Origin: Hydrogenobaculum sp. 3684
GTDB taxonomy: Bacteria; Aquificota; Aquificia; Aquificales; Aquificaceae
Length of the DNA stretch: 64,000 bases
Assembly (NCBI RefSeq): GCF_000213785.1
Contig: NC_015557.1
Coordinates: 62,001-126,000, forward strand
Direction: 5' to 3'
The notes under the pieces were generated by a model. That model made no database searches and was not told where the DNA came from. It saw only the letters and a list, made by a program, of their open reading frames with translations. This document shows positions 46,284 to 62,621 of this stretch, piece after piece; position 1 is the stretch's first letter, and each line of letters opens with the position of its first letter. The position numbers and the translations under genes are program-made.

Positions 46284-47483
46284 ATGTATAGTCAACCGGA
46301 CGAAAAAGGTTATTTTAAAGAAGGAGATATAGCTTTTGGTGGAAGGTTTTTACCTGAAACGTTGATGTATGCTCTTGAAGAGCTTGAATATTTTTATAAA
46401 AAACTCAAAGACGATGAGTCTTTTAAAAATCAACTAAATTATTACCTAAAAGATTACGCTGGAAGGCCAACTCCTCTTTATTTTGCCCAAAAACTTTCCG
46501 ATCTTGCCGGTGCTAAGATATATCTTAAAAGAGAAGATTTGCTTCATACAGGAGCGCATAAGATAAACAACGCTATAGGGCAATGTCTTTTGGCTAAAAA
46601 GATGGGTAAACACCGTATTATAGCTGAGACAGGTGCAGGACAGCACGGTGTGGCTACGGCTACCGCTTGTGCGTTGCTTGGTCTTGAGTGCGTTGTTTAT
46701 ATGGGTGAAGAAGACGTTAGGCGTCAGAGGTTAAATGTTTTCAGAATGGAGCTTTTAGGTGCAAAGGTAGAAGTGGTGACTTCTGGTACAAAAACTTTGA
46801 AAGATGCCATCAATGAAGCGTTGAGAGATTGGGTTACAAACGTTGAAACCACTCATTATGTAGTTGGTTCTGTAGTAGGCCCACATCCTTTTCCTATGAT
46901 AGTGAGAGATTTTCAAAAGGTAATAGGAGAAGAGACAAAGTCTCAAATAATAGAAAAAGAGGGAAGACTTCCTGATTTTGTCATAGCCTGTGTAGGTGGT
47001 GGTTCGAACTCCATAGGCATTTTTTACCCTTTTATTGATGATAAAGAGGTTAAGCTTATAGGTGTTGAAGCGGGTGGGCTTGGTCTTGCTAGTAAAAAAC
47101 ATGCGGCACCTTTATCGGACGGTGAAGTGGGAATACTTCATGGCATGAAATCTTACTTTATGCAGGATGAAGAAGGTCAAATATTGGGTACTCATTCTGT
47201 ATCTGCTGGTCTTGATTATCCTGGTGTGGGTCCTGAGCATGCTTTCTTAAAAGCTACGAAAAGAGCTACATACATATATGCTACTGACGAAGAGGCGCTG
47301 GAGGGTTTTAAGCTTTTAGCAAAAACAGAAGGTATAATACCTGCTTTGGAATCTTCTCATGCTGTTATAAAGGCTATAGATATTGCCAAAGAAAACCCCG
47401 GTTCTTTAATGATAATAAACCTCTCCGGTAGAGGCGATAAGGATGTAAATCAGATATTTGATATGTTTAAAGGTGGCATTTAG
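46284..47483 (+). CDS. trpB: tryptophan synthase beta chain
   Basis: A 399-residue TrpB1, which joins indole and serine. The PLP lysine is K93 in H-T-G-A-H-K-I-N-N; the phosphate loop G-G-G-S-N-S-I-G lies near 236, and E-T-G-A-G-Q-H-G is intact. trpA is not adjacent and no other trp gene lies nearby, which is common in Aquificales. It starts 14 bp after the GH57 gene. A divergent unknown gene lies just 3' on the other strand. Confidence 0.96.
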
Positions 47484-47485
47484 CT

Positions 47486-47854
47486 TTATATCTTTTTCGC
47501 CAGAGTTTCTAAGAATTCCTCATAAGTTTTTGATATCTGATCTGCTTTTTCACATAGATTTTTATCCATGAGTATATCCTTTTTCATCAAAAATGGTCTT
47601 ATCGTATTTTCATAGTTGTTTTTATGTTCCAAGTAATCGTATTTTATATCCTCTTTATCCATGTTTTCTATATCTATCATGTAAGATTTGTAAAGGACTT
47701 TTACAGATATAAGTAGATGCTCTAATTCCTTTGATAAATCGCCCTTATCTTTACCAGCCAAAAATATCCTGTTAAATTTTGAATAATTTAAGTTTTCCAT
47801 GCTTTTAATATATTGTATAACCTTTAAAAAGGGATGATCAAAATAAGTATGCAA
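47486..47854 (-). CDS. hypothetical helical protein, up to 122 residues
   Basis: The product is rich in charged helices (LSKELEHLLISVKVLYKSYMIDI, KADQISKTYEEFLETLAKKI) with no signal peptide or cysteine motif; it could be a small helical bundle. No family recognised. The longest frame begins at a TTG (47854); the first ATG is at 47800, giving 104 residues. Neither has a good ribosome site. It ends 2 bp from the trpB stop, convergent. Confidence 0.5.
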   Translation of the reverse strand: MHTYFDHPFLKVIQYIKSMENLNYSKFNRIFLAGKDKGDLSKELEHLLISVKVLYKSYMIDIENMDKEDIKYDYLEHKNNYENTIRPFLMKKDILMDKNLCEKADQISKTYEEFLETLAKKI

Positions 47855-47904
47855 TATTTTGCAACATGAATATGTGTAGAGATTTGCTTTACTAAGTTTT
47901 GTGC

Positions 47905-47971
47905 TATAATTATAACTCTAACCAGCGCTTGCCGTATAGCGCTATATAAGTGACGGTGCCTTTTGGCTTTA
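47905..47971 (+). promoter_or_regulatory. promoter and possible pseudoknot leader of the CysO-type gene
   Basis: TATAAT (47905-47910) begins a leader of about 65 nt. AGCGCT (47924-47929) pairs with AGCGCT (47938-47943); within the loop CCGT (47932-47935) can pair with ACGG (47953-47956) downstream, an H-type pseudoknot pattern. GCC-TTTT-GGC (47958-47967) forms a small hairpin just before the AAGGAGAGG ribosome site. No known riboswitch class was recognised. Confidence 0.45.
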
Positions 47972-47981
47972 AGGAGAGGAT

Positions 47982-48260
47982 ATGGCTATAACCGTTAGAA
48001 TACCAACACCTTTGAGAAGATTGGCCAATGGCCAAGGAGAAGTAAGCGTAGAGGCTAAAAACATAAGAGAGCTTATAGATGCCTTAGAAGCCTCTTATCC
48101 TGGTTTTAAAGAAAGGCTTGTGGATGAAAATGGAGAGCTAAGAAGGTTTGTAAACCTTTATTTAAACGATGAGGATATAAGATTTTTAAAAGGTATAGAT
48201 ACAGAGCTAAAAGATGGAGATACGCTTTCTATAGTTCCAGCGATTGCAGGTGGTGTTTGA
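47982..48260 (+). CDS. MoaD/ThiS-family sulfur carrier, CysO-like
   Basis: A 92-residue ubiquitin-fold sulfur carrier. V-R-I-P-T-P-L-R-R, the middle RRFVNLYLNDEDIRF and the end D-G-D-T-L-S-I-V-P-A-I-A-G-G are closest to mycobacterial CysO, which is thiocarboxylated on its terminal glycine and gives sulfur to O-phosphoserine for cysteine. Here one extra Val follows the GG, so a C-terminal cut (as done by Mec-type peptidases for CysO in some species) may be needed. It could also serve molybdopterin or other sulfur transfers. Its 3' end overlaps the convergent miaA gene by 32 bp. Confidence 0.82.
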   Translation: MAITVRIPTPLRRLANGQGEVSVEAKNIRELIDALEASYPGFKERLVDENGELRRFVNLYLNDEDIRFLKGIDTELKDGDTLSIVPAIAGGV

Positions 48261-49125
48261 TATCTTCGATGGTTCTTATTGGTGTGAAGGTGGTTTTTTG
48301 AAACCATCTTCTTTGCCTTGAAGCATACTCTTTTGTGTTTTTTATTATATTTTCTATAGCCTCTTTAAGGCTTGATTTACCTTCTATATAAGGTATCATC
48401 TCTTTGTAGCCTATAGCCTGAGAAGATGTCATGGCTTCTTTGTACCCTAAACAAAGCAAATTTATACATTCTGCTTCAAGCCCTTGCTCTATCATATAGT
48501 ATGTTCTTTTTTCTATGTTTTTGTTTAGCTCTTCTTGAGTAAGGTTTGTATAAAAGCCTAAAACTTTCATTTTTGGTTCATGCCATTTGTGGAATGTGGA
48601 AAAGGGTTTTCCAGTGTTTATAAACACTTCTAACGCTCTTATTATACGTTTTTTATCGTTTTTTCCTATTTTTTCTGCGTATACTTTATCTACGGTTTTA
48701 AGCTTTTCATATAAAAAATGAAGTCCTTTTTTGTTTGCTATATTTTCTAATTTCTTTCTAAGTTTAAAATCTGGTTCTGAAGTTTCAGGTAAGCCGTATA
48801 AGAGAGCTTGGATATAGAGGTATGTACCACCTACTATTATTGGTATTTTACCTTTTTCTTTTATTTGCTTGATAATGTTTTTTGTTTTTTCCACATATAT
48901 ATAAGTATCAAAATATTCATTTGGTAATACTACATCTATCATATGGTATTTTATCTCTTTTCTTTTTTCTAAACTTGGCTTTGCGGTGCCTATGTTCATA
49001 AATTTGTATACACACATGGAATCCGCGCTTATTATCTCTGTGTTTAAAAGCTTTGCCAACTCGTGAGCAATTTCTGTTTTACCGGATGCCGTGGGCCCAC
49101 CTATTATTATGGCGTCTATAGACAT
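48229..49125 (-). CDS. miaA: tRNA dimethylallyltransferase
   Basis: A 298-residue MiaA, adding the isopentenyl group to A37 of tRNAs that read UNN codons. The P-loop G-G-P-T-A-S-G-K-T spans about 8-16; D-S-M-C-V-Y, G-G-T-Y-L-Y, and the tRNA-binding Q-A-I-G-Y-K-E are intact (the family usually has SMQVY: M-C is a small deviation). It overlaps tsaE by 10 nt upstream, and the sulfur carrier gene by 32 bp at the 3' end on the opposite strand. Confidence 0.95.
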   Translation of the reverse strand: MSIDAIIIGGPTASGKTEIAHELAKLLNTEIISADSMCVYKFMNIGTAKPSLEKRKEIKYHMIDVVLPNEYFDTYIYVEKTKNIIKQIKEKGKIPIIVGGTYLYIQALLYGLPETSEPDFKLRKKLENIANKKGLHFLYEKLKTVDKVYAEKIGKNDKKRIIRALEVFINTGKPFSTFHKWHEPKMKVLGFYTNLTQEELNKNIEKRTYYMIEQGLEAECINLLCLGYKEAMTSSQAIGYKEMIPYIEGKSSLKEAIENIIKNTKEYASRQRRWFQKTTFTPIRTIEDIKHHLQSLEL

Positions 49126-49517
49126 AATTTAAACAGCCTTTTATTTTGACCTATATCTTTTATACTAAGTTTTTTTGTGCATTCTATTTCTTTTGGCCAC
49201 TCTACAAAGGTTATAGATTCGCTTTGTTTTTCTTTTATATAATCTATAAAACTTTTTACATTTTCTACTCTGTAGAAGTCTACATGCAACACGTCAAAGT
49301 CTTTCAACTTGTATTCGTTTATTATTGAAAACGTGGGACTTGATACATCGTAAAAGTTGTAGCTTTTAAGAAAAGCTTTCACAAACGTAGTTTTTCCAGA
49401 TCCAAGATCACCTTCTAAGCATACTACGTCTGATACTTTCATATAATCTTTTACAAGATTTACAAATTCATCTAAATTATCTAATGTGATAATGTCTATT
49501 ATGTATTTGTTTTGCAT
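49116..49517 (-). CDS. tsaE: tRNA threonylcarbamoyladenosine biosynthesis ATPase TsaE
   Basis: A 133-residue P-loop ATPase with L-E-G-D-L-G-S-G-K-T-T-F-V-K near residue 35-48 and S-P-T-F-S-I-I-N-E-Y (T and Y binding switch region). TsaE drives turnover of the TsaBD complex that makes t6A37 in tRNA. It overlaps miaA, so two A37-modifying enzymes share one transcript. Confidence 0.92.
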   Translation of the reverse strand: MQNKYIIDIITLDNLDEFVNLVKDYMKVSDVVCLEGDLGSGKTTFVKAFLKSYNFYDVSSPTFSIINEYKLKDFDVLHVDFYRVENVKSFIDYIKEKQSESITFVEWPKEIECTKKLSIKDIGQNKRLFKLCL

Positions 49518-49566
49518 AAGTGTTGATTATATCAGATGTACAAAGCTTTAAACATGAGCATTATCA

Positions 49567-49595
49567 TTGAATTTAAGTTTTTAATATGATAAAAT
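49567..49595 (+). promoter_or_regulatory. promoter of the initiator tRNA
   Basis: TTGAAT (49567-49572), 17-bp spacer, TAAAAT (49590-49595); the tRNA starts 6 bp later. Confidence 0.65.
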
Positions 49596-49600
49596 TTTAT

Positions 49601-49674
<74 letters not shown>

Positions 49675-49689
49675 CTTAACTTTTGATTT

Positions 49690-50310
49690 TTAAACCTCTT
49701 TAATCTTTTTGTAAAAGAAAATGTTGTTTATTTTCATAGTTTCGAAAAACTGAGTATGTATACGGTTTAGCACTTCTGTCATAGATACTATAAAAAACTG
49801 CCCATTTTTATAGTGTAAGCTATATTCTTTATAGCAATTAGCTTCGAATCGTCGTTAAAATATATTAGGACATTTCTGCAAAATGCCACGTCAAATACTT
49901 CTCTATAGGTTGTAAAATCTTCTTTTCTTATGAGGTTTAACTGCTTAAATTGTATTTTTTCATTATAGAATCTTTTATTTTGAAACTATCTTCTTTTATA
50001 TCTAAAAATCTATGATATTCTTGCGGTATATCTAACATTTCTCTTTTTGGATATATGCCAGTTTTTGCTTTCTCTAAGTAAGTCTCATTTATATCAAAGC
50101 CTATTATTTGATATGGTATAGCGTTGGCTTCAAACATCAGTTTGTCGTGGCAGACTTGTTGGTCGTGGCAGATTTGTCTTATAAAAACATGTTTAATTTT
50201 TTTGCTAAAAGCATCAAACGCTCATCTGGATAGTAGTTGCCAGTTAACTCATAAATTATCTTTCTCAATTCTTCAAAGAATTTGCCACTTATACTAGTTT
50301 CTTGTTCCAA
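49690..50310 (-). pseudogene. cheR: decayed CheR chemotaxis methyltransferase
   Basis: Pieces of CheR read in order on the minus strand. A TTG at 50310 inside trmD opens 43 residues like the CheR N-terminal helices (GKFFEELRKIIYELTG), stopping at 50179. A gap that lacks about 80 family residues follows and holds a 16-bp repeat, GTCGTGGCAGA[CT]TTGT (50144-50159, 50162-50177). Then IIGFDINETYLEKAKTGIYP runs to a stop near 49937. In a shifted frame comes FDVAFCRNVLIYFND, the CheR hallmark. A further shift gives FFIVSMTEVLN, the remains of FLGHSESL, ending at 49690. At least two frameshifts and one deletion make it inactive. No other chemotaxis gene is in the window. Confidence 0.85.
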
Positions 50311-51047
50311 CCTAATATCTCCTCAAAACTTAGATTTGTTTTTATGGCTTCTAAAAATAGCTTTTCTATATTGGTTAATTTTTTTGGTATTAAATCCGGT
50401 CTTAATTTTACCGTAAGCTCTATTCGTTCCCATAGACTCCAGAGCTCTATTAGTTTGTGATTTCCGGTTTTTAATACCCATGGTATCTTATGACCTTTAA
50501 ATTCTTCTGGTCTTGTATAAACTGGATAACCAAGCCATTTGTTTGAAAAAGAGTCTTGCTCTAAACTTTCTTTGTCTGACAAAACCCCTTCTAAAAGTCT
50601 TGTTATACCATCTATTATTGAAAGTGCCACCAATTCCCCGCTGCTTAGTATAAAGTCTCCTATGGATATGTCCAAATCTACTATATTGTCTACTCTTTTG
50701 TCCATTCCTTCATATCTACCACATAATATTATAATATTTTTTTTATTTTTTAAATTGTTTAATATGTGCTGGTTTATTGTTTTGCCCCATGGCTCTGGTT
50801 TTATTACAAAGGGTTTTTGAGATGTGATAGACAATACGTGCTCATAAGCAGCCACTATAGGCTCTGGTTTTAATACCATCCCTGGGAACCCACCGTAAGC
50901 GGTATCATCTACTTTTTCATAAAAATTTCTTGGGTTTACAGTATGAACACTGACAAACCCTTGTTTTATGGCTTTTGATAAGATACCAAATTTAGTATAA
51001 CACTCTATTATTTCTGGAAATATGCTAACTACGAAAAAATTAATCAT
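50289..51047 (-). CDS. trmD: tRNA (guanine-37-N1)-methyltransferase
   Basis: A 252-residue TrmD, the SPOUT enzyme that makes m1G37 to prevent +1 frameshifting. D-D-x-A-Y-G-G-F-P-G-M-V (about 46-57), L-C-G-R-Y-E-G-M-D (around 112-120), G-D-F-I-L-S-S-G-E (near 133-141) and W-L-G-Y-P-V-Y-T-R-P are all present. It overlaps atpZ by 8 nt upstream. The cheR remnant overlaps its last codons. Confidence 0.96.
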   Translation of the reverse strand: MINFFVVSIFPEIIECYTKFGILSKAIKQGFVSVHTVNPRNFYEKVDDTAYGGFPGMVLKPEPIVAAYEHVLSITSQKPFVIKPEPWGKTINQHILNNLKNKKNIIILCGRYEGMDKRVDNIVDLDISIGDFILSSGELVALSIIDGITRLLEGVLSDKESLEQDSFSNKWLGYPVYTRPEEFKGHKIPWVLKTGNHKLIELWSLWERIELTVKLRPDLIPKKLTNIEKLFLEAIKTNLSFEEILGWNKKLV

Positions 51048-51258
51048 CTTTTAACGTTTTTTTAAAATCTTGGTAAGCGTTTTTAAAACCAGCTATTATG
51101 CCAAAAGCTAAAAATATAAACAAAAACAAAGGGGATGTGTTTTTATGGAAAAATTCAAAAGCCAACTTATCAAGCATATATCCAACGAATAAGCCTGCTA
51201 TTATACCACCAAGGATGTTAAAAGCAACATTTAAAGCACTAAACTCTTTTAGGTTCAT
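51040..51258 (-). CDS. AtpZ/AtpI-type ATP synthase accessory membrane protein
   Basis: A 72-residue protein with two membrane helices. N-I-L-G-G-I-I-A-G-L-F-V-G-Y-M-L-D-K in helix 1 and LAFGIIAGFKNAYQDFKK in helix 2 are the AtpZ pattern, a small partner of F-type ATP synthase linked to Mg2+ supply or c-ring assembly. It lies between pheA (4-nt overlap) and trmD (8-nt overlap), away from any atp operon. Confidence 0.82.
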   Translation of the reverse strand: MNLKEFSALNVAFNILGGIIAGLFVGYMLDKLAFEFFHKNTSPLFLFIFLAFGIIAGFKNAYQDFKKTLKDD

Positions 51259-52325
51259 CTTGGATAAGAGCCCAAAAATTTTATCATATGGCTGTTTTTG
51301 TCAAGTTCTTCTAATGCTTCTTTTACATTTTTATCTTCGATATGTCCTTCCATATCTACATAAAATATATCATCCCAAGCCTTTTTCTTGGAAGGCCTTG
51401 ACTCTATTTTAGTAAGGTTTATATTGTGCCTATAAAATATTTCAAGGGCTTTATAAAGGGCTCCTGTTTGGTTTTTAACACCCATAATGATGCTGGTTTT
51501 ATCTTTTCCTGTGGGCTTTGTAAGTGTTTTACCTATTATTAAAAATCTTGTGAAGTTATTTTTTTGGTCTTGGATGTTTTTTGCCAATATGTTTAATCCG
51601 TAAACGTAAGCTGCTACTTCAGATGCTATAGCTGCCGTTCCTGGTTCTTTTTGAGCTATTTCACAGGCGTTTGCAGTGCTTTTGGCTTCTAATATTTCTG
51701 CAAAAGGAAGATGCTTTTCTAAAAATTTCCTGCTTTGCGCTAGCGCATGTTTGTGGGAATATACTTTGCTTATTTTAGCAATATCTCTTTCTAACGATAA
51801 CAGAAATAGATTTATGGGTATTATGATTTCTCCTACTATAAAAAGATCCGCATCCATTAAAAGATCAATGGTATGATTTACTATCCCTTCTATGGTGTTT
51901 TCTATGGGCACTACTCCGTAATGGGCGTTTCCCGATTCTACAAGCTCAAAAACTGTAGAGATAGAATCGCAGGCAATATAATCAGAAGATAATCCAAAAT
52001 GGGATATGGCTGCCTGATGGGTAAACGTTGCTTTTGGCCCAAAGTAGGCTATCTTTACAGCTCCTTCCAAAGATGATATGGCAGATATAATCTCTTTATA
52101 TATTATTTCCAGTGCTTCTTTTGGAAACAAACCGTATTTTTCATTTTCTTTTATTACGTTTGATATAACTTCTTTTTCCCTTTGTAAGTTCCTAACTTGT
52201 ATATTTTGCTGTTTTTTTATTTCTCCTATCTTTTTTGCAATATCAGCTCTTTTGTTTAGAAGCTCTACTATTTTTGCGTCTATTTTGTCTATCTCGCTTC
52301 TTAAATCCTCTAACTCTTTGGTCAT
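51255..52325 (-). CDS. pheA: bifunctional chorismate mutase/prephenate dehydratase
   Basis: A 356-residue P-protein that turns chorismate into phenylpyruvate. The AroQ mutase domain covers about 1-85 (LRSEIDKIDAKIVELLNKR), the dehydratase about 90-275 (AYFGPKATFTHQAA, VPIENTIEGIVNHTIDLL), and an ACT domain the end, with E-S-R-P-S in its phenylalanine-binding site, so feedback inhibition by Phe is expected. It overlaps neighbours by 4 nt on both sides. Confidence 0.95.
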   Translation of the reverse strand: MTKELEDLRSEIDKIDAKIVELLNKRADIAKKIGEIKKQQNIQVRNLQREKEVISNVIKENEKYGLFPKEALEIIYKEIISAISSLEGAVKIAYFGPKATFTHQAAISHFGLSSDYIACDSISTVFELVESGNAHYGVVPIENTIEGIVNHTIDLLMDADLFIVGEIIIPINLFLLSLERDIAKISKVYSHKHALAQSRKFLEKHLPFAEILEAKSTANACEIAQKEPGTAAIASEVAAYVYGLNILAKNIQDQKNNFTRFLIIGKTLTKPTGKDKTSIIMGVKNQTGALYKALEIFYRHNINLTKIESRPSKKKAWDDIFYVDMEGHIEDKNVKEALEELDKNSHMIKFLGSYPR

Positions 52326-52582
52326 TCTATGTCAATTTTCTTTGCTTTTTTCTTGGTCTCTTGCTTTGGTTCTGTTTTTTTCTCGAGCTTTTGGACTTGA
52401 TAATCCACAACAGCCTTTAAAGCTTTCCAGAAAGCCATCTCCGATATTCTCATCTGCCTTATCACCTCTTCCCTTATCTCTTTTGGTGGCAAAAATGCAC
52501 TAAAAAGCATTTTAAGGGCTTGTTCTCTTGCCATTTGGGCTTCGTCTTCAAAGCTTTCTACTTCAAGTTTTTCCTTTTCCAT
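52322..52582 (-). CDS. hypothetical protein, 86 residues, first gene of the pheA cluster
   Basis: A short soluble, very charged protein beginning MEKEKLEVESFEDEAQ, with a central helix (LPPKEIREEVIRQMRISEMAFWKALKAVVDYQ) and a Lys/Glu tail. No family recognised. The ATG at 52582 is preferred to the upstream in-frame start at 52618. It overlaps pheA by ATGA, so it is expressed with pheA, atpZ and trmD. It diverges from secF. Confidence 0.55.
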   Translation of the reverse strand: MEKEKLEVESFEDEAQMAREQALKMLFSAFLPPKEIREEVIRQMRISEMAFWKALKAVVDYQVQKLEKKTEPKQETKKKAKKIDIE

Positions 52583-52647
52583 ACTAAATATTATAAACTT
52601 TATACTTTTAGTTGGCAATATTAATTTATGATATACTAATACAAGTT

Positions 52648-53529
52648 ATGCGGATTAAATATATACATTTTATAAAGTATAGATACTACTCTTATGTGAT
52701 ATCTATAATATTGATATTGCTTTCGGCTTTTAGCTTGTATAGTAGGGGCTTAAATCTTGGTCTTGATTTTACCGGCGGGACAATGATAGAAGTAAGGTTC
52801 CAAACACCTGTAAGCGTAAAGCAAGTAGATGATGCTCTTTATAAGGTAAATATCAAAGATGCGGTTGTTCAGCGTACAAACACTGGCGATATTATTGTGA
52901 AGATAAGGGTAGGTGAGAAGCCAAGCCTTGTAGAAAAAGCGTTAAATAGTATTGGTAGTTATAAGCTTTTACAAAGAGAAGATATTGGTTCTGTGGTAAG
53001 TGGAGAACTAAGAAAAAAGGCTGTATGGGCTATAATTACAGCTTTAGTAGGCATACTGATATATCTATCCTTTAGATATGAGTTTTTGTTTGCTCTTGGT
53101 GGAATATTGGCACTTGCTCACGACGTTTTTATAGTTGTAGGTGCTTATTCTTGGACTTATAAGGAAGTGAGTTTGGACGTTTTGGCTTCAATTCTTGTGG
53201 TGGCTGGTTATTCTATAACAGATACTGTGGTGGTATTTGATAGAATAAGAGAAAATCTCAAATTAAGAAAAGGTATGGACCTGTCTGAGATTATAAACTT
53301 GTCTGTTAACCAAAATATAGTAAGGACTATTATGACGTCTTCTACGGTGTTTTTATCTTCTTTGGGTCTATACCTTTTTGGTGGAAGCGTTTTATCTGAT
53401 ATTTCTTTTGCGTTTTTGATAGGTGTTGTGGTGGGTACTCTTTCTTCTATATTTGTGGCTTCAGCTCTTGTTCTTGATATAAAAATCTTACTTAGAAAGA
53501 TCAAAAAACAAAAACCAAAATCAATATAG
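52648..53529 (+). CDS. secF: protein translocase subunit SecF
   Basis: A 293-residue SecF with six membrane helices. L-G-L-D-F-T-G-G-T (near 38-46) marks the first periplasmic domain and YSITDTVVVFDRIREN the conserved helix 4 region. It works with SecD to pull exported chains using the proton gradient. secD is not adjacent, unlike most bacteria. TATACT lies only about 11 bp before the ATG and no ribosome site is seen, so the message may be leaderless. Confidence 0.93.
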   Translation: MRIKYIHFIKYRYYSYVISIILILLSAFSLYSRGLNLGLDFTGGTMIEVRFQTPVSVKQVDDALYKVNIKDAVVQRTNTGDIIVKIRVGEKPSLVEKALNSIGSYKLLQREDIGSVVSGELRKKAVWAIITALVGILIYLSFRYEFLFALGGILALAHDVFIVVGAYSWTYKEVSLDVLASILVVAGYSITDTVVVFDRIRENLKLRKGMDLSEIINLSVNQNIVRTIMTSSTVFLSSLGLYLFGGSVLSDISFAFLIGVVVGTLSSIFVASALVLDIKILLRKIKKQKPKSI

Positions 53530-53592
53530 TCATTGTCAAATTCTTCTAATTTTATATTTTATTAAAATCTTAAAAACAAAGGAGTGGTTGTT

Positions 53593-53709
53593 ATGGGTAA
53601 AAAATTGAATGCTCATGATAAGTTTATTTTCATCTTAACTCCCACTGTAATCATTATTGTATTTGTTATTTTTCTAATAATATTTAACTATGTATCTAAA
53701 CACGGTTAA
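53593..53709 (+). CDS. 38-residue single-span membrane microprotein
   Basis: ATG at 53593 follows AAAGGAGTGG at ideal distance. The product starts MGKKLNAHDKF and has one membrane helix at about residues 11-33 (FIFILTPTVIIIVFVIF), ending NYVSKHG; basic residues at the N terminus suggest cytoplasmic N-in topology. It resembles small accessory subunits of membrane oxidases (CydX, CcoQ) only in size. It lies 127 bp upstream of sqr and could be a partner of a membrane quinone enzyme. Function is unknown. Confidence 0.65.
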   Translation: MGKKLNAHDKFIFILTPTVIIIVFVIFLIIFNYVSKHG

Positions 53710-53730
53710 ATAGTTTTTAACAATTTTATA

Positions 53731-53766
53731 CTTTCTTTATATATAAGAAAGATTTATTTTCTTATA
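53731..53766 (+). promoter_or_regulatory. overlapping inverted repeats upstream of sqr
   Basis: TATAAGAAA (53742-53750) and TTTCTTATA (53758-53766) are perfect 9-bp arms. CTTTCTT (53731-53737) can instead pair with AAGAAAG (53745-53751), so two mutually exclusive stems share one strand. This can be a terminator for the microprotein, an attenuator, or a double operator. Confidence 0.6.
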
Positions 53767-53802
53767 AGATATATTTATTTACTTATACGTATATAGTTAT
53801 AT

Positions 53803-53808
53803 TATAAT
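53803..53808 (+). promoter_or_regulatory. -10 element of sqr
   Basis: TATAAT at 53803-53808, start near 53815, TTAGGAGG then ATG at 53837. The -35 is not clear in this AT-only stretch. Confidence 0.5.
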
Positions 53809-53836
53809 TAAGTATTATCTAACTTTAGGAGGTATT

Positions 53837-55123
53837 ATGGCAAAAAGAGTGGTTATTATAGGCGGTGGCGTAGGTGGTGTATCTACCGCTTACAATTTAA
53901 GGAAATTAGACGCTAACCTTGATATCAAAGTAGTTTCTGGAAGGCCTTATTTTGGTTTTACTCCAGCCTATCCTCATTTGGCTATAGGATGGCGTAAATT
54001 TGGTGATGTATCAACGCCTCTTCAACCAGCTTTGAAGAAAAAGAACATAGATTTTATAAATGAGGATGCTGATAAGATAGATCCAGATGCCAACAAAGTT
54101 ACGTTAAAAAGTGGCAAAGTCTTAGAATACGATTATCTTGTAATAGCTACCGGTCCAAAACTTGTATATACAGAGGGCCAAGAGGAAAATGGACATTCTG
54201 TATGTACAGTGGATCACGCTTTAGAACTCAACAAAGCTTTGGAAAAGTTTTTTGAAAAACCAGGTCCAGTGGTGGTTGGTGCTAAACCAGGTACTAGCTG
54301 TTTTGGCCCAGGATATGAGTTTGCTTTTATGCTTCATTATGAAGCTAAGAAAAGAGGCTTAAGGCATAAGTTTCCAATCTATTATATAACTTCTGAGCCG
54401 TTTTTGGGTCATCTCGGTTTAGGTGGTGTTGGAACCTCAAGAAGGGTTATGGAAGACTTGATGGCCGAAAGGGATATAAGACCAACGGTAAATGTAAAAG
54501 TAAAAAAAGTTGAAAAAGATCATGTTGTTTATGAAGATTTAAACGGCAAAGAATATCAAGTAGAATCTTCTTTTACTATGCTTATGCCAAGTTTTATGGG
54601 TACAGATGTAGTAGCAAGCGCTGGTGATAAAGTAGCAAATCCGGCCAATAAGATGGTTATAGTGGATAAGTGCTTCAACAATCCAAATTATAGAAACATA
54701 TACGGTGTTGGCGTAGTAGCTGCTATACCTCCAGTAGAACAAACTCCAGTGCCTACCGGTGTTCCAAAAACTGGTCAAATGATAGAGGGTATGGCTTTGG
54801 CCACCGCTTTAAACATAGTATCTGATATAAGAAACAGCTCAGAAAGGTATATGCCTACTTTGGCCGCTATATGTATAGCTGATATGGGTAACGATGCCGC
54901 TGGTTTTATAGCTTATCCGGTTATACCACCAAGAGCTTGGACCTTGCAAAAAAAGAGTAAATGGATGCACTGGGTTAAAACTAGCTTTGAAAAATATTTC
55001 TTATGGAAGGTAAAATTTGGCGATGTAGAGCCATGGTTTGAAAAGATGGGTCTTGAGGCTATGTTTAATCTTCACTTAGTAGAACCATGCGCTGATTGTA
55101 GTGGTGTGCCAGGTAAACAATAA
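53837..55123 (+). CDS. sqr: sulfide:quinone oxidoreductase (type I-like)
   Basis: A 428-residue flavoprotein that oxidises sulfide to polysulfide sulfur and reduces membrane quinone. The FAD loop is G-G-G-V-G-G at 9-14; three redox cysteines lie at C123 (HSVCTVDHA), C155 (GTSCFGPGYE) and C346 (AAICIADMGNDAA), as in the Acidithiobacillus enzyme. An amphipathic C-terminal stretch (KTSFEKYFLWKVKFG) should anchor it to the membrane. The tail adds C418-x2-C421 (PCADCSG), not part of the catalytic set. It is flanked by two single-span microproteins, and a TauE-type exporter is convergent downstream. Confidence 0.95.
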   Translation: MAKRVVIIGGGVGGVSTAYNLRKLDANLDIKVVSGRPYFGFTPAYPHLAIGWRKFGDVSTPLQPALKKKNIDFINEDADKIDPDANKVTLKSGKVLEYDYLVIATGPKLVYTEGQEENGHSVCTVDHALELNKALEKFFEKPGPVVVGAKPGTSCFGPGYEFAFMLHYEAKKRGLRHKFPIYYITSEPFLGHLGLGGVGTSRRVMEDLMAERDIRPTVNVKVKKVEKDHVVYEDLNGKEYQVESSFTMLMPSFMGTDVVASAGDKVANPANKMVIVDKCFNNPNYRNIYGVGVVAAIPPVEQTPVPTGVPKTGQMIEGMALATALNIVSDIRNSSERYMPTLAAICIADMGNDAAGFIAYPVIPPRAWTLQKKSKWMHWVKTSFEKYFLWKVKFGDVEPWFEKMGLEAMFNLHLVEPCADCSGVPGKQ

Positions 55124-55174
55124 TACTTGAAAAAATTTTTTTATATGTTATTATGTTATTAAGGAGGTGAAGTT

Positions 55175-55333
55175 ATGTATTTAGGATTTAAGCTTTCTAT
55201 GTTTTTGGCAATTATATTTTATGGTTGGATTTTTGCCACCCTTTTGTATGGCATAATAAATGCTTCTCGCACAGATGAAGAAGGTGAGATTTTCCAGGGT
55301 TTTAACGACGAACCAAATATTAAGAAACAATAA
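55175..55333 (+). CDS. 52-residue single-span membrane microprotein after sqr
   Basis: ATG at 55175 follows a near-perfect AAGGAGGTGA. MYLGFKLSMFLAIIFYGWIF begins one membrane helix (about residues 5-29) and an acidic cytosolic or periplasmic tail follows (ASRTDEEGEIFQGFNDEP). It lies 51 bp after sqr and just before a terminator, so it is almost certainly co-transcribed with sqr. It may anchor or stabilise SQR; no family recognised. Confidence 0.7.
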   Translation: MYLGFKLSMFLAIIFYGWIFATLLYGIINASRTDEEGEIFQGFNDEPNIKKQ

Positions 55334-55340
55334 TGTAAGA

Positions 55341-55366
55341 AGCGGGTTGTAAGCCCGCTTTTTATT
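55341..55366 (+). terminator. intrinsic terminator after sqr
   Basis: AGCGGG (55341-55346) pairs with CCCGCT (55354-55359), followed by TTTTTATT. It can serve the convergent exporter gene as well. Confidence 0.85.
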
Positions 55367-56123
55367 ATATTAAATATTTTACTCCTATTAAAAATAAAAA
55401 TAAAAGTGTTAGTCTCATAAAGGTTTCATTTGATATTTTCATATGCAGTTTGTTTCCTCCAAAAAGCCCTAAACCAGCAAAAGGTATAAGAGATAGGCCT
55501 ATCTCAAATAGTTTTAAGTTTAAAAGCCCTACACTAAGATAGGTGAAAACCCTAAGGATGTTATCTAAAAGCGCTATCACTTGGAATGTGGCCCTAAAGG
55601 CTCTTTTTTCTATTCTCCTTAGCTGAAGGTAAGCTACCAAAGGAGGACCACCACCACCGTATAAGCTTCCTATAATACCAGCAAGCATACCTAATGGAAA
55701 TGCCCAGAACTTTCTTATAATTGGTAGCTTTTCTGGTTTAAAACTAACAGCGTATATCACATAGGATATGATAAATACTCCTAAAAATCTTGTTATGTTT
55801 TGAGCATCTGTTTTTGCCAAAATAAAAGTACCTATAATAAGCCCTATTATGCTACCTGGAAAAAGCCAGGTTAACTCTTTAAACCTTATATGCGAGAAAT
55901 CGTAAGCTCCTAACAGTATAGATCCAGCTAAGTCTAAAATGAGCACCACCGGTACCACTTCCTTTATAGGAAATGTAAGACTTAGAAGCGATACTGAAAT
56001 AAGCCCAGAACCGAAACCTATTGTGGCTCTTACGTAAAAAGCCAAGGCTACCACAAAAGCCCCGTATACAAAATAAGACCAAAAATGTGGGTTTAATAAA
56101 TTTATCATATCTATTGTATGCAT
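55365..56123 (-). CDS. TauE/SafE family anion (sulfite) exporter
   Basis: A 252-residue membrane protein with about eight helices. The first half carries I-G-F-G-S-G-L-I-S-V-S-L-L and PVVLILDLAGS, the second G-S-L-Y-G-G-G-G-P-P-L-V-A-Y-L, both typical of the TauE/SafE family whose members export sulfite, sulfoacetate or related anions. Convergent placement next to sqr supports a sulfur-anion role, by inference only. It is monocistronic on the minus strand. Confidence 0.88.
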   Translation of the reverse strand: MHTIDMINLLNPHFWSYFVYGAFVVALAFYVRATIGFGSGLISVSLLSLTFPIKEVVPVVLILDLAGSILLGAYDFSHIRFKELTWLFPGSIIGLIIGTFILAKTDAQNITRFLGVFIISYVIYAVSFKPEKLPIIRKFWAFPLGMLAGIIGSLYGGGGPPLVAYLQLRRIEKRAFRATFQVIALLDNILRVFTYLSVGLLNLKLFEIGLSLIPFAGLGLFGGNKLHMKISNETFMRLTLLFLFLIGVKYLI

Positions 56124-56190
56124 AAGAAAATTTTACTATTTAAAAACTTTTTATTCTCTGATAGATATAGTATTTTTGCTTTTAATAAAA

Positions 56191-56793
56191 TCAAAATAAT
56201 AAACTATGCTGTTTTAAAATATTTGTGATTTCGTTTGTGATGGCCTCCACATTTTTTGAGGCGTCTATTGTATAAAAATTGTATTCTTTTGCAAGTTTTA
56301 AATAACCATCCCTTACCTTTTTTAAAAATTCTAAATCTTCAAATACATCTTTTTCTCTTTTAAGCCTTAGAAGAGCTATTTTTGGGTCTATGTCAAGTAG
56401 AAATACAATATTTGGTATATATATGTCGCATACGAAATCGTTTAGGGCTTTTAGAAAGTTTATATCGATACCAAAACCATAACCCTGATAAGCTATCGTT
56501 GAATATATATATCTATCCAAAAGTAGTATACCTTCAAAACCTTTGAAATGCTTTTCTATCATATGTGCTCTTGAGGCTTCTATTAGAAATGTTTGGGTTT
56601 TTGGGTCTAGTTTTTGTAATTTTAATATATCTCTAATTTTCTCTCCCATCTCTGTGGAGCCTGGTTCTCTTAATAATTTTACGTTTTTATCTTTTAAAAG
56701 CTCATAAACTATATTTATTTGTGTGGATTTTCCGCTGCCGTCTATTCCTTCAAAAACTATGATGTAGGGTTTTTGTATAACTTTATTTTCCAT
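56191..56793 (-). CDS. tmk: thymidylate kinase
   Basis: A 200-residue dTMP kinase. The P-loop F-E-G-I-D-G-S-G-K-S-T (about 14-24), the D-R-Y motif in LLDRYIYSTIAYQG, and a LID with RLKREKDVF are in place. It makes dTDP for DNA synthesis. It begins on the last base of dnaB, so replication initiation and precursor supply are co-expressed. Confidence 0.95.
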   Translation of the reverse strand: MENKVIQKPYIIVFEGIDGSGKSTQINIVYELLKDKNVKLLREPGSTEMGEKIRDILKLQKLDPKTQTFLIEASRAHMIEKHFKGFEGILLLDRYIYSTIAYQGYGFGIDINFLKALNDFVCDIYIPNIVFLLDIDPKIALLRLKREKDVFEDLEFLKKVRDGYLKLAKEYNFYTIDASKNVEAITNEITNILKQHSLLF

Positions 56794-58250
56794 TAAAAAT
56801 CTACGTCCAAATCTATATCTGTATCTACTATATCGCTATCTTCTGTTAAACCGTTTTCCTCTTCCTCATATTTTGAATAAAGGGATGCAGCTTTTTCTGA
56901 TAGCTGGTAAAAAGATGCGAAATCGCTAATAAAAGCAAGTCTAACTATGCCAGTGGGTCCTTGTCTTTGCTTTGCTATTATGACCTCTACAATTCCCTTT
57001 TCCTCTGGCAACGGATTTTTTTTGTAATACTCTGGTCTATGTAAGAAAATAATAAGATCCGCATCTTGCTCTATTTGGCCAGACTCTCTTAAATCCGATA
57101 GCTGGGGTCTTTTGTCTGATCTATGCTCTGTTTGGCGTGAAAGCTGAGCTAGGGCTATTACAGGTATTTTTAGCTCTTTTGCCAAGGCTTTTAAATTTCT
57201 AGATACCTCAGCCACTTCTTCTTGTCTATTGCCTTTTGCTCTTATAGACCTTATAAGCTGAAGATAGTCTATTGCTATTATTTTGACGCCTTTTTCTCTA
57301 ACTAGTTTTCTGGCTTTTATGCGAAGATCCGATATTGTAATGGCTGGGGAGTCGTCTATGTAGATTCTTAATTTTGACAGCTCTTCTTTTGTATCGTTTA
57401 AAAGTTTTATCTCTTCGTCTGTTACCATCCCAGTCCTAAGTCTTTGCATATCTATTTTACTTGCTGAAGATAAAAGCCTCATAATAAGCTGCTCTTTGCT
57501 CATCTCCAGAGAAAATATCCCAACAGCTATATCTTTTTTAGCCATGTTGTGCATCATTGAAAGCATAAAGGAAGATTTTCCCATTCCAGGTCTTGCCGCT
57601 ATTATTACAAGATCAGATTCGTGAAAACCTGTGGTAAGCTTGTCTAAATCAATAAAACCAGTAGGCACACCGGTAACAAGCTCTTTTTTGTGGGCAAATT
57701 TTTCTATTATGCTTATAACATCTTCCAATATATCTTTTAGCTCAAAGTATCCAACGTTTACATTGTCAGAGGCTATGTTTATAAGTTCGCTTTGTATGGT
57801 TTCTATAAGGATGCTTGAATCTTGGGTTTGTTTTGTTTCCCTTATTATCTTGATGCCCAAATTTATTATTGCTCTTTGAATAGCTTTTTCTTTTATAATT
57901 TTTATTACACTTTGTAAAATCTCTATATCTGTAACAGCTTCTAAAACGAGCGCTTCTAAAAAGTCTTCCGTTATATCTATTATTTTCTTTTTTTCTATAA
58001 AATCTTTTAACAAAACTCTGTCTATGGTGTTTAGGTTTGCATTTTCAAAATAGTATTCTAATAAAATCTTAAAAAGGGTTTTATGTATCGGCTCAAAGAA
58101 ATCATCCTCTTTTAGTACCTCTGCTACTATTGGTATGTTTTCTATATCGTATAGCATAGCACCAAGTACGGATCTTTCAGCAGCTTCGTCTCTTGGTAAA
58201 TCAATATCAAAGAAGCTATTTTTGTTTAGTAATTCGTCTGTGTTGTTCAT
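56793..58250 (-). CDS. dnaB: replicative DNA helicase DnaB
   Basis: A 485-residue hexameric helicase. The N-terminal dimer domain (PRDEAAERSVLGAMLYD) precedes a RecA-fold core with Walker A A-R-P-G-M-G-K-S-S (near 224-232) and I-I-A-I-D-Y-L-Q-L-I as Walker B; QLSRQTEHRSDKRPQLSDLRESGQIEQDAD is the usual C-terminal signature region. No intein is present. An acidic tail rich in D ends the chain. It is the first gene of dnaB-tmk. Confidence 0.96.
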   Translation of the reverse strand: MNNTDELLNKNSFFDIDLPRDEAAERSVLGAMLYDIENIPIVAEVLKEDDFFEPIHKTLFKILLEYYFENANLNTIDRVLLKDFIEKKKIIDITEDFLEALVLEAVTDIEILQSVIKIIKEKAIQRAIINLGIKIIRETKQTQDSSILIETIQSELINIASDNVNVGYFELKDILEDVISIIEKFAHKKELVTGVPTGFIDLDKLTTGFHESDLVIIAARPGMGKSSFMLSMMHNMAKKDIAVGIFSLEMSKEQLIMRLLSSASKIDMQRLRTGMVTDEEIKLLNDTKEELSKLRIYIDDSPAITISDLRIKARKLVREKGVKIIAIDYLQLIRSIRAKGNRQEEVAEVSRNLKALAKELKIPVIALAQLSRQTEHRSDKRPQLSDLRESGQIEQDADLIIFLHRPEYYKKNPLPEEKGIVEVIIAKQRQGPTGIVRLAFISDFASFYQLSEKAASLYSKYEEEENGLTEDSDIVDTDIDLDVDF

Positions 58251-58277
58251 TTTTATATTTTATTTTTAAAATTATGT

Positions 58278-58889
58278 TTAAGTATTTTCTTTTAATTCAA
58301 GTCCTATCATCTTTTCTTCTAGCAATTTTGTATATTCTTCTAAATCCGCATTTTCTTCTATGTATATTTCCTCTGTAGTCCTTAGCTTTATGCTTGAAAA
58401 AGGCATTGGTATTTGAAATCTGTCCCAGGAGTTGAGGCTTATGTAGTTTGATATGTTTGCGTATATACCGACTATTGGTCTTTTTGTTTTTTGAGCAAGA
58501 TAAACAATGCCTTGTTTTACTTTTTTGGGTGGGCCAGTGGGTCCATCTACAGTTATGGCTATATTATAACCTTGTTCTAAAATTTTTTTTATCTGAATAA
58601 GAGCTTTAGCTCCTCCTTTGTCTTTGTTGTCTTTGTTGCTGGAGCCTCTTACTACTCCAAAACCGAGACCTTGCAGTAAGATAGTGGCTATATCACCGTC
58701 TTTGTTTTGGCTTGCCATGCTGTAAATGTTTTTGTCTATGCCATACATAGCTACAGCTAAAGCCTGAGAGTGCCATAATGCGTATATAACAGCTCTGTCT
58801 TTTGAATCGTCTCTGTCGCAGGTTATTTTTATGGTTTTTCTTAAAAGCCTTATACCGTATGGCAAAAGCTTTATGAGGCTATCTTTCAT
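58278..58889 (-). CDS. lysophospholipid acyltransferase family protein (DUF374)
   Basis: A 203-residue member of the LPLAT/DUF374 family, related to lipid A late acyltransferases. I-Y-A-L-W-H-S-Q-A-L (about 34-43) carries the catalytic-type histidine, GVVRGSSNKDNKDKGGAKALIQ and ITVDGPTGPPKKVKQG are the substrate-binding motifs of this subgroup, though the aspartate of HX4D is not obvious. The enzyme probably acts on lipid A or a lysolipid at the inner membrane. It lies 27 bp upstream of dnaB in the same direction. Confidence 0.82.
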   Translation of the reverse strand: MKDSLIKLLPYGIRLLRKTIKITCDRDDSKDRAVIYALWHSQALAVAMYGIDKNIYSMASQNKDGDIATILLQGLGFGVVRGSSNKDNKDKGGAKALIQIKKILEQGYNIAITVDGPTGPPKKVKQGIVYLAQKTKRPIVGIYANISNYISLNSWDRFQIPMPFSSIKLRTTEEIYIEENADLEEYTKLLEEKMIGLELKENT

Positions 58890-58907
58890 TAAAATTTAAA
58901 TTTGGAA

Positions 58908-58925
58908 AGGGGCTTGAAAGCCCCT
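58908..58925 (-). terminator. terminator of glnB-glnA
   Basis: AGGGGCT (58908-58914) pairs with AGCCCCT (58919-58925) across TGAA, 13 bp after the glnA stop in the direction of transcription, followed by TTTCCAAATTT on the transcript strand. Confidence 0.7.
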
Positions 58926-58937
58926 ATTCTTAGCATA

Positions 58938-60347
58938 TTAGATATCAAAGTATAGTTCAAATTCAAGCGGGTGTGGAGTAAATCTCATCTTGTTTATTTC
59001 CTCTTTCTTTGATTCAATCCACATTTGGATAAACTCTTCTGTAAATACTCCACCTTTTAGTAAAAATTCATAATCTTCTTCTAGAGCTTTTAGAGATTCT
59101 TCTAATGAGCCTGGAAGCTGTGGTATATTTTGAAGTTCTTCTGGTGGCAATGAATATATGTCTTTGTCAAAAGGTTCACCTGGGTTTAGCTTGTTTTCTA
59201 TACCATCAATTGCTGCCATCAATATCGCTGCAAAAGCAAGATATGGGTTTGTGGTAGGGTCTGGGAACCTTATTTCTATACGTTTTGTCTTTGGATTTTG
59301 AGAATACATAGGTATTCTTATGGAAGCAGATCTGTTTCTGGCAGAGTAAGCAAGTCTTACGGGAGCTTCAAAACCTGGTACTAACCTGTGGTAAGAGTTT
59401 ATAGTAGGGTTTGTAATAGCTGCTAAGGCTGGACCATGTTTTAGTATACCGCCTATTGCATATTTACATATTTCTGATATACCTGCATAGTCAGAACCAG
59501 CAAATAGGTTTTGACCGCCCTTCCATATTGAGAAGTGTGTGTGCATACCACTACCGTTGTCGTTTGGTAAGACTTTTGGCATGAATGTAGCAAATTTGCC
59601 ATACTTAGCTGCTACTTGTCTTACTGTATACTTATATTTAAAAAGATTATCCGCTTGTTTTACCAAGGAGTTATACCTTATATCTATTTCGGCTTGACCA
59701 GCTGTAGCCACTTCGTGGTGGTGTAATTCTACTGTGATACCCATGTACTTGCTCATTATGGTTACCATTTCTGCTCTTAAGTCGTGAGTTTTGTCTAGTG
59801 GAGGTGCTGGGAAGTATCCTCTCTTGTTTGGTATTTTATAACCAGATGAAGTAAATTCTCTATTCCACCATCCTTCTTCTGAGTCTACTCTCCAGAAAGA
59901 TGAGTTCCCAGTGTTGCCAAACTCTACAGAATCAAATATGAAAAATTCAGCTTCAGGACCAAAATAAGCTACATCGCCTATGCCTGTTTGTTTGAGATAT
60001 TGTTCTGCTTTTTGAGCTATGTATCTTGTATCTCTTCCATATCTTTCCCTTGTAATGGGGTCGTAGATATCACATATCATCACAATGGTATTTTCCATGA
60101 AAGGATCTATGAAGCATGTTTCTGGATCTGGAAAAGCTAGCATATCTGACTCATTTATAGATTGCCAGCCTCTTATAGAAGAACCGTCAAAGCCTCTTCC
60201 GTTTTCGAACGTATCCATAGATAATTCATAGGCTGGTATGGTAAGGTGCTGCCATTGGCCAAACGGATCTGAAAATCTCAGATCCACATACTCGATGCCT
60301 TCGTTCTTGACTAGGTCCAAGACCTCTTGAGCTTTTGCTTGATTCAT
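58938..60347 (-). CDS. glnA: glutamine synthetase type I
   Basis: A 469-residue GSI. G-R-G-F-D-G-S-S-I-R-G-W, F-G-P-E-A-E-F-F, H-H-E-V-A-T-A-G-Q-A-E, G-S-G-M-H-T-H and N-P-T-I-N-S-Y-H-R-L cover the ammonia, metal and ATP sites. D-I-Y-S-L-P-P-E-E near residue 400 keeps the tyrosine that is adenylylated in beta-type enzymes. TTTTTATTAAGGAGG lies upstream; glnB precedes it by 30 bp, so nitrogen sensor and enzyme share an operon. Confidence 0.97.
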   Translation of the reverse strand: MNQAKAQEVLDLVKNEGIEYVDLRFSDPFGQWQHLTIPAYELSMDTFENGRGFDGSSIRGWQSINESDMLAFPDPETCFIDPFMENTIVMICDIYDPITRERYGRDTRYIAQKAEQYLKQTGIGDVAYFGPEAEFFIFDSVEFGNTGNSSFWRVDSEEGWWNREFTSSGYKIPNKRGYFPAPPLDKTHDLRAEMVTIMSKYMGITVELHHHEVATAGQAEIDIRYNSLVKQADNLFKYKYTVRQVAAKYGKFATFMPKVLPNDNGSGMHTHFSIWKGGQNLFAGSDYAGISEICKYAIGGILKHGPALAAITNPTINSYHRLVPGFEAPVRLAYSARNRSASIRIPMYSQNPKTKRIEIRFPDPTTNPYLAFAAILMAAIDGIENKLNPGEPFDKDIYSLPPEELQNIPQLPGSLEESLKALEEDYEFLLKGGVFTEEFIQMWIESKKEEINKMRFTPHPLEFELYFDI

Positions 60348-60377
60348 ATTAAACCTCCTTAATAAAAATTTAGCTTT

Positions 60378-60725
<348 letters not shown>

Positions 60726-60795
60726 CTATCAAATATAATGCCAATAAACTTTTTCTTGTAAAATAACATTTCTTGAAAAATCACTGGTATTATTT

Positions 60796-60831
60796 GTTAA
60801 CAAAATTGTTAACATGTTAACATATGTCAAC
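60796..60831 (-). promoter_or_regulatory. GTTAAC operator-like cluster upstream of glnB
   Basis: Palindromic GTTAAC occurs at 60796-60801, 60808-60813 and 60816-60821, and GTCAAC at 60826-60831. The first three sit inside longer dyads (TTGTTAACAA, TTGTTAACATGTTAACA). The cluster starts about 80 bp upstream of the glnB ATG and suggests binding of a dimeric regulator to several half-sites. Confidence 0.55.
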
Positions 60832-60850
60832 ATTGTATTTTTATACTTTT

Positions 60851-61759
60851 TCAATGTCCTTCACCTCTTGCCATTTTAAGAGCATGTTTAATTAGCCCAC
60901 CTATCATGCTAAGGTTGTCTTTTACGCCGCCGCTACTTCCAGGTAGGTTTATCACTATGCAGTTTTCGTTTATGATACCACAAACAGCCCTAGACATTAC
61001 GCTTTTTGGCACTTTTCTATAACCATAAACTCTCATTATCTCTTCAAAACCTATCATCTCTTTTATTATAACTTCTTTAGTGGCTTCCGGTGCTATATCT
61101 CTTTTTGAAAAACCAGTGGAACCACTCGTTATAATAATGTTTGCAGTGTTTTGTAGGCTTTTAAGACGATCTATCAATATGTCTTTATCATCTGGTATGA
61201 CCTCGTAATGAACTACTTCCGCCTTTAGATTTTCTAACATTTCTATAGCTATTTTGCCACTTTTATCTTCGTATTCTCCTTTGGAAGCTCTATCGCTTAA
61301 GACTATGACCGCCGCTTTTTCTCCAGATAAATCTTCAAAATAATCAGACTTTCCACCTTTTTTAGATAAAAGCTTTATTTCTTTTATCACCATATTTTTA
61401 TCTATACCTTTACACATATCATATATGTTTAAAAGCATTGTATTTACAGCGTTTAGTGCTTCCATTTCGTAGCCGGTTCTAGCTATTCCTCTTACTGTAG
61501 CAAACACTTCTATGCCGTTTTCTTTTATGTTTACCTCACCTTCTACAAAGTCAATGCTTATAGGATGACAAAATGGAAGTATTTGTTGAGTAGCTTTTGC
61601 ACCATATAAAGCGCACAATTTTGTGGCTTCTGTGAGATTGCCTTTTGGTAATTGATTTGATTTAATCTTTTCTATGGTTTCCTTACTAAGCTCTATAAAG
61701 CCATAGGCTTTTGCCTCTCTTAGGGTTTCTATCTTATCGCTTACATCTATTGTTTTCAT
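60851..61759 (-). CDS. MoaC-MogA/MoaB fusion, molybdenum cofactor biosynthesis
   Basis: A 302-residue fusion. Residues 1 to about 145 are MoaC (ALYGAKATQQILPFCHPISID and MEALNAVNTMLLNIYDMCK), which with MoaA makes cyclic pyranopterin monophosphate. From about 150 to the end is a MogA/MoaB domain (VIVLSDRASKGEYEDKSG, ITSGSTGFSKRDIAPEAT, NLPGSSGGVKD) that adenylylates molybdopterin. Fusion of an early and a late step is uncommon but known in a few lineages. It overlaps mtnP by 4 nt. Confidence 0.9.
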   Translation of the reverse strand: MKTIDVSDKIETLREAKAYGFIELSKETIEKIKSNQLPKGNLTEATKLCALYGAKATQQILPFCHPISIDFVEGEVNIKENGIEVFATVRGIARTGYEMEALNAVNTMLLNIYDMCKGIDKNMVIKEIKLLSKKGGKSDYFEDLSGEKAAVIVLSDRASKGEYEDKSGKIAIEMLENLKAEVVHYEVIPDDKDILIDRLKSLQNTANIIITSGSTGFSKRDIAPEATKEVIIKEMIGFEEIMRVYGYRKVPKSVMSRAVCGIINENCIVINLPGSSGGVKDNLSMIGGLIKHALKMARGEGH

Positions 61760-62595
61760 ACATCTGCTCCTTCTAATACGCTTTCACATTGGCATACAAA
61801 TTGTTTTTGGGCTTTTGTTATGAAAAGCGTTAAAAACTTTTTAATCTCCTCGTCTTTTTGTTTCATCATATCTATCACTTCTTTCGAGGTAAGTTTATTG
61901 CCTTCTATGCCAGCGGCAGGATTTGTTATTATGCTTATATGAAGTATATGCATGCCTGTTTCCCTTGCTAAAAAGACCTCTGGACACGCTGTCATGCCTA
62001 CCATATCTGCCCCTAAATGCTTTAGCATCTCTATCTCTTTTTTAGTTTCAAACCTTGGACCTTCGGTACAAGCGTATACACCCTTTACATAGAAATGTAA
62101 ATTCAATTCTCTTAGTGTTTCGTTTGCTATTCCTATCATCTCTTCGCAAAAGATGTTTGACATGTCTGTATGTACTACTTTTTTAGCTTTTAAAAGCCTA
62201 TAAAAAGGTGTATCTTCTTCATCTATGTCTTTGGAAAACACCCCTTCGAAAAACGTTGATACTCTTGATTTGGTAAAGTCTAAAACATCGGATGTTATAA
62301 CAATATCACCGCTTTTAAAAAGTGTGTTTATACCACCTGTAGCCCCTATGCTTATTAGTTTTCTAACACCTATTTTATATAAAGCGTATATGTTTGCTCT
62401 ATAGTTTACAAGATGAGGTGGTATGGAATGGTCTATGTCGTGCCTTGATAAGAAGGCAACGCCATTTTTTAAAAATATTTTGGAAGATGGTTTACCAAAA
62501 GGAGTATCTATATCTAGTTCTTCAACATCATCAAATATTTTATATAAACCACTTCCACCTATTATTCCAAGAAAAGCATTGTTTTCGTGGTGCAT
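61756..62595 (-). CDS. mtnP: S-methyl-5'-thioadenosine phosphorylase
   Basis: A 279-residue MTAP. G-I-I-G-G-S-G-L-Y, F-L-S-R-H-D, S-I-G-A-T-G-G-I, the C-T-E-G-P-R-F-E-T motif and G-M-T-A-C-P-E-V are characteristic of the hexameric thermophilic enzymes. It splits methylthioadenosine to adenine and methylthioribose-1-phosphate, clearing the by-product of the SpeH-dependent aminopropyl transfers. The start codon lies within an 11-bp inverted repeat. Confidence 0.93.
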   Translation of the reverse strand: MHHENNAFLGIIGGSGLYKIFDDVEELDIDTPFGKPSSKIFLKNGVAFLSRHDIDHSIPPHLVNYRANIYALYKIGVRKLISIGATGGINTLFKSGDIVITSDVLDFTKSRVSTFFEGVFSKDIDEEDTPFYRLLKAKKVVHTDMSNIFCEEMIGIANETLRELNLHFYVKGVYACTEGPRFETKKEIEMLKHLGADMVGMTACPEVFLARETGMHILHISIITNPAAGIEGNKLTSKEVIDMMKQKDEEIKKFLTLFITKAQKQFVCQCESVLEGADV

Positions 62596-62621
62596 AAAAA
62601 TATAATATCACACCACGAAAA
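62582..62621 (-). promoter_or_regulatory. 11-bp perfect inverted repeat over the mtnP start
   Basis: TTTTCGTGGTG (62582-62592) and CACCACGAAAA (62611-62621) are perfect arms 18 bp apart; the first covers mtnP codons 2-5 and the ATG lies just inside the loop. The centre (TATTAT-like on the transcribed strand) could be a -10. It may be a DNA operator, or an RNA hairpin that presents the start codon in its loop; it might also end the deacetylase mRNA. Confidence 0.6.

Follow-up and report, generated by a model that had tools for sequence, protein, structure and literature searches.

Two single-span microproteins encoded beside sqr in Hydrogenobaculum

The sulfide:quinone oxidoreductase gene (sqr) of Hydrogenobaculum, an acidophilic Aquificaceae genus of acid hot springs, lies between two small genes, ORF1 and ORF2, which are real coding genes under purifying selection. 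Judged from sequence, they represent two new genus-restricted families of single-span microproteins linked to sqr, a known kind of protein. Their most probable role, with a probability of about one half, is an accessory one: single-span proteins specific to this genus that assist SQR or the quinol-oxidising chain fed by SQR. The locus is part of a 64-kb window, the whole stretch of DNA analysed, in a source genome (G000) of 1.55 Mb on a single contig. The within-genus comparison covered five Hydrogenobaculum species, the most divergent being G002 (UBA2488).

Two conserved small genes flank sqr

Features of the sqr locus, with positions counted in the 64-kb window
Feature	Position	Strand	Description
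Promoter-like element before ORF1	53533..53560	+	TTGTCA-16 bp-TATTTT
ORF1	53593..53709	+	ATG 53593 to TAA 53709; 38 aa; single-span microprotein MGKKLNAHDKFIFILTPTVIIIVFVIFLIIFNYVSKHG; predicted N-inside
sqr leader and promoter region	53750..53836	+	Strongly conserved; TTTACT-16 bp-TATTAT; ribosome site AGGAGGT
sqr	53837..55123	+	Sulfide:quinone oxidoreductase, 428 aa; ortholog of Aquifex enzyme 3HYV
Promoter-like element between sqr and ORF2	55127..55154	+	TTGAAA-16 bp-TATTAT
ORF2	55175..55333	+	ATG 55175 to TAA 55333; 52 aa; single-span microprotein MYLGFKLSMFLAIIFYGWIFATLLYGIINASRTDEEGEIFQGFNDEPNIKKQ; conserved acidic tail
Intrinsic terminator directly 3' of ORF2	55336..55365	+	AAGCGGG-TTGTAAG-CCCGCTT, then T-rich
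TauE/SafE-family permease	55365-56123	-	Convergent with ORF2 in four of the five species; not linked to sqr in the remaining one

The earlier note had placed one ORF 127 bp before sqr and the other 51 bp after it, both with an excellent ribosome site and a single membrane helix, and the sequence, the ORF list, hydropathy and AlphaFold2 all agree with this. The ribosome sites are AAAGGAGTGG 5' of ORF1 and AAGGAGGTG 5' of ORF2, and the best 19-residue stretch has a hydropathy of 3.2 in ORF1 and 2.2 in ORF2. Modelled as a single chain in AlphaFold2, ORF1 forms one helix at residues 7-37 (mean pLDDT 90), and ORF2 one helix at residues 2-44 (mean pLDDT 75, confident only to about residue 30). The charge pattern suggests an N-inside topology for both. 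Aquifex SQR is a monotopic enzyme on the outer side of the membrane; with ORF2 predicted to be N-inside, its conserved acidic tail would face outside, on the same side as SQR.

Both ORFs evolve as protein-coding genes. In the alignment of the five species 22/38 positions of ORF1 and 42/52 of ORF2 are invariant, and dN/dS is approximately 0.1 for both (Fisher p 1e-4 to 1e-13). Between loci L001 and L004, ORF1 has 20 synonymous and 6 nonsynonymous changes on 24 and 90 sites, and ORF2 has 18 and 2 on 30 and 123 sites, with Fisher p ~1e-13 in each case. The dN of ORF2 in close species pairs is comparable with or below that of sqr. Purifying selection, one hydrophobic helix and a ribosome site, the properties expected of a gene for a small single-span bacterial membrane protein, are thus present in both. 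It is very improbable that the ORFs are merely chance open frames in A+T-rich gaps: such DNA favours hydrophobic codons and 5-12% of sequences generated with the gap composition reach the ORF length, but ORF, ribosome site and hydrophobic helix occur together in <0.1% of them (0.06% for the ORF1 gap, 0.02% for the ORF2 gap), and chance would not account for the dN/dS and Fisher p values above.

Among the 53 small intergenic ORFs of the window, only ORF1 and ORF2 have a ribosome site together with a strong helix and are also conserved over their full length in 4/4 sister species. The sole other hydrophobic candidate, at 6548-6634, was rejected as an out-of-frame GTG read within the leader of the next gene.

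Linkage and signals within the genus

ORF1 and ORF2 flank sqr in all five Hydrogenobaculum species, in the same order and on the same strand with nearly the same spacing. In G002 a block homologous to window positions 53550-55327, which starts at about the ORF1 promoter and extends to the end of ORF2, lies on one contig, while the neighbouring blocks, one ending at 53507 (secF) and the other starting at 55366 (TauE), are on two other contigs. In this species a divergent P-type ATPase and a transglycosylase border the trio; their counterparts are far from sqr in the other species. Since homology breaks just outside the trio on both sides, ORF1, sqr and ORF2 appear to have stayed together while both neighbourhoods changed. 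A rough count in the stretch tested gives about one fifth of adjacencies broken in G002 and ~80% kept, so that survival of the trio through one relocation is modest evidence. A functional tie of the two ORFs to sqr is supported, at the level of sequence, by their co-directional presence in 5/5 species and their retention as a block after rearrangement.

The same comparison excludes ORF1 as a gene of the secF operon, as secF of G002 lies on a separate contig and is not followed by ORF1 there, whereas ORF1 has remained beside sqr. An apparent truncation of sqr in G002 coincides with a run of N in the assembly. Gene order in window positions 44100-64000 is split into many short blocks relative to G002; some of the breaks are contig ends, and the rearrangement rate is apparently high for one genus.

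Each of the three genes has a promoter-like element upstream. The promoter scan finds equally many such sites in shuffled sequence, so it is their conservation rather than the match itself that supports them. The element before ORF1 is TTGTCA or TTGAAA, 16 bp, then TATTTT, TATATT or TATCTT in the five species, and it still precedes ORF1 in the most divergent species, where secF is no longer upstream. The sqr leader is unusually conserved across the genus and contains, close to the putative -10, the inverted repeat ATAAT-TAAGT-ATTAT, which could be a regulator site. The element in the gap between sqr and ORF2 is kept in 5/5 species while the spacer varies, suggesting that ORF2 may have its own promoter. 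The terminator after ORF2 is genuine: its 46-nt fold has -18.1 kcal/mol (z -4.8), and the stem is maintained despite altered bases in the more distant species L004 and L005. The earlier note had ORF2 inside the sqr transcript, before the terminator. Its placement before the terminator stands, but the sqr transcript is possibly not its only source; ORF2 may be made from the sqr transcript and also from its own start. No Rfam element was found at the ORF1-sqr-ORF2 locus.

Distribution outside the genus and the SQR enzyme

In 121 genomes from across the class, profile searches found a single copy of each family per Hydrogenobaculum genome and gave no credible match in the 116 other genomes. A scan of 84,980 species genomes for ORF2 returned three records only, all from Hydrogenobaculum. 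At sqr itself, 0/25 loci from eight other Aquificaceae genera and 0/5 loci of a second family carry a similar small membrane ORF in the same orientation as sqr, so that ORF1 and ORF2 occur at 5/35 of the orthologous sqr loci inspected, all Hydrogenobaculum. The weak profile matches outside the genus (E 0.001-1) that were inspected fall within longer, unrelated proteins, are out of frame or contain stop codons. Two viral-contig matches to ORF2 (46% identity) are in another frame of a phage gene, have mainly the search-pattern motif in common, and were set aside as chance.

In several other Aquificaceae genera the neighbour of sqr is a gene for cytochrome oxidase subunit III (L006, L007, L009, L010 and L025) or for the Rieske protein of bc1 (L011-L015, L020 and L021), with Pfam identity tested on L006 and L011 only. 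These neighbours match the biochemical SQR-bc1-oxidase supercomplex described for Aquifex.

The Hydrogenobaculum SQR aligns with Aquifex SQR (PDB 3HYV) over residues 1-427 with an E value of 3.5e-194. The central gene of the locus is thus an ortholog of a gene whose relatives, unlike Hydrogenobaculum sqr, lack ORF1- or ORF2-like neighbours. As the alignment includes the C-terminal part, there is no sign of a need for an extra anchor. Identity between orthologous SQRs is 61-71% in other genera of the family and 54-56% in the second family. Of 22 substitutions special to the genus, 3/22 are in residues 361-428; a genus-specific contact patch at the C-terminus was rejected, as the special substitutions are not concentrated there.

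Possible functions

In the preferred reading, ORF1 and ORF2 would be microproteins that cross the inner membrane once and belong to a three-gene sqr locus specific to the genus. Their place in the membrane would be next to SQR, itself monotopic, or next to a quinol-oxidising complex that receives SQR electrons (bc1/cbb3 or cytochrome bd), and they would help to assemble, stabilise or dock SQR or that complex. This role is favoured by the constant position of the ORFs next to sqr in the genus and by the location of ORF2 ahead of the terminator at the end of the locus. Against it are the restriction to one genus, the orthologous SQRs that occur elsewhere without either protein, and the special SQR substitutions, which do not cluster in the C-terminal part. 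We infer the topology, co-expression with sqr and any contact with SQR or an oxidase.

It is somewhat unlikely, although the best placed of the alternatives, that the two are independent small membrane proteins, for example in stress or acid adaptation, and neighbours of sqr by descent only. Their own promoter-like elements, which mean that co-transcription with sqr is not assured, and their restriction to the genus would fit such proteins, and with most adjacencies kept a neighbourhood can persist without function. It is harder to explain in this way why two such genes flank one gene when there are none elsewhere in 64 kb, and why the trio's DNA was kept with breakpoints exactly outside it.

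The earlier note proposed that the proteins are subunits or anchors of SQR, in the way CydX serves cytochrome bd. The functional tie in this proposal is supported within the genus, where the small ORFs and their helix are conserved beside sqr in 5/5 species, but the idea of a general subunit does not: the same check finds none at the 30 loci of other genera, and since the families are absent there although SQR is orthologous, ORF1 and ORF2 cannot be general SQR subunits. A narrower version, in which one or both are stoichiometric transmembrane subunits that give the monotopic enzyme an integral anchor, is improbable. It is consistent with the tight linkage to sqr, the nearly invariant tail of ORF2, and the predicted helix with a conserved tail facing the side on which SQR would lie. 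However, the C-terminal part of SQR is conserved and has no genus-specific patch, and a strict subunit role is less likely than the accessory role because the same SQR works elsewhere without the two proteins.

Small single-span subunits overlooked by annotation are common in respiratory complexes. CydX, CcoQ and CoxIIa would be the nearest functional analogues of ORF1 and ORF2, by likeness of build and context. Like the products of the two ORFs, CydX (YbgT/YccB) is short, spans the membrane once and is encoded next to a respiratory enzyme of the membrane, but the enzyme beside ORF1 and ORF2 is monotopic rather than polytopic, and they adjoin sqr, not cydAB. ORF2 shares the general build of CcoQ/FixQ of cbb3, an N-terminal helix with a short acidic tail, but both ORFs are outside the cbb3-like operon. 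CoxIIa, the single-helix subunit IIa of the ba3 oxidase of Aquifex and Thermus, is encoded upstream of the subunit II gene, in contrast to the position of the ORFs beside sqr. Aquifex SQR occurs in a supercomplex where CoxIIa, missed by genome annotation, was found late by intact mass (PMC3128077), and this one-helix subunit is the closest precedent. In the source genome the sole heme-copper oxidase is cbb3-like in build (PMC3665934).

That ORF1 and ORF2 are small subunits of a terminal oxidase encoded at a distance (bd or cbb3-like), and expressed with sqr because the oxidase receives SQR electrons, is the least probable of these functional alternatives. The source genome has one cytochrome bd and one heme-copper oxidase, the latter in the cbb3-like operon, and lacks the high-scoring heme-copper oxidases of its relatives (open frames of ~540-590 aa). 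Its cydAB genes (G000:C1, ~394-397 kb) are not encoded together with ORF1 and ORF2 (~115-117 kb). No CydX-like ORF lies beside cydAB, in favour of this reading, and the build of ORF2, one helix and an acidic tail, is general for such subunits. To our knowledge, however, not every bd oxidase has a known CydX. The cbb3 and bd oxidases reported in Hydrogenobaculum from metagenomes are thought to be coupled to sulfur oxidation (PMC3665934), also in favour of an oxidase partner. Neither ORF matches the CydX (YbgT_YccB), CcoQ/FixQ or CoxIIa Pfam families (hmmscan of the five Hydrogenobaculum members of each ORF family, E up to 10), so displaced members of these families were rejected, while such a function may still apply. 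At the end of the cbb3-like operon (L112, G000:C1:744000-758000) there are already two small membrane ORFs (98 and 79 aa; L112 reverse strand 8665-9203), themselves without a Pfam match.

SQR is known to be monotopic and to attach to the membrane unaided. It is doubtful that the accessory role extends to two dedicated transmembrane microprotein subunits docking SQR to quinol-oxidising complexes in a lineage-specific build of the SQR supercomplex. If a lineage does add dedicated one-helix partners, it would show how a self-binding monotopic SQR can join a respiratory supercomplex, and the small membrane proteins, which are poorly mapped, would gain two families. Should the partner turn out to be an oxidase, the locus would still supply, for an acidophilic sulfide oxidiser, a short list of missing subunits that can be tested.
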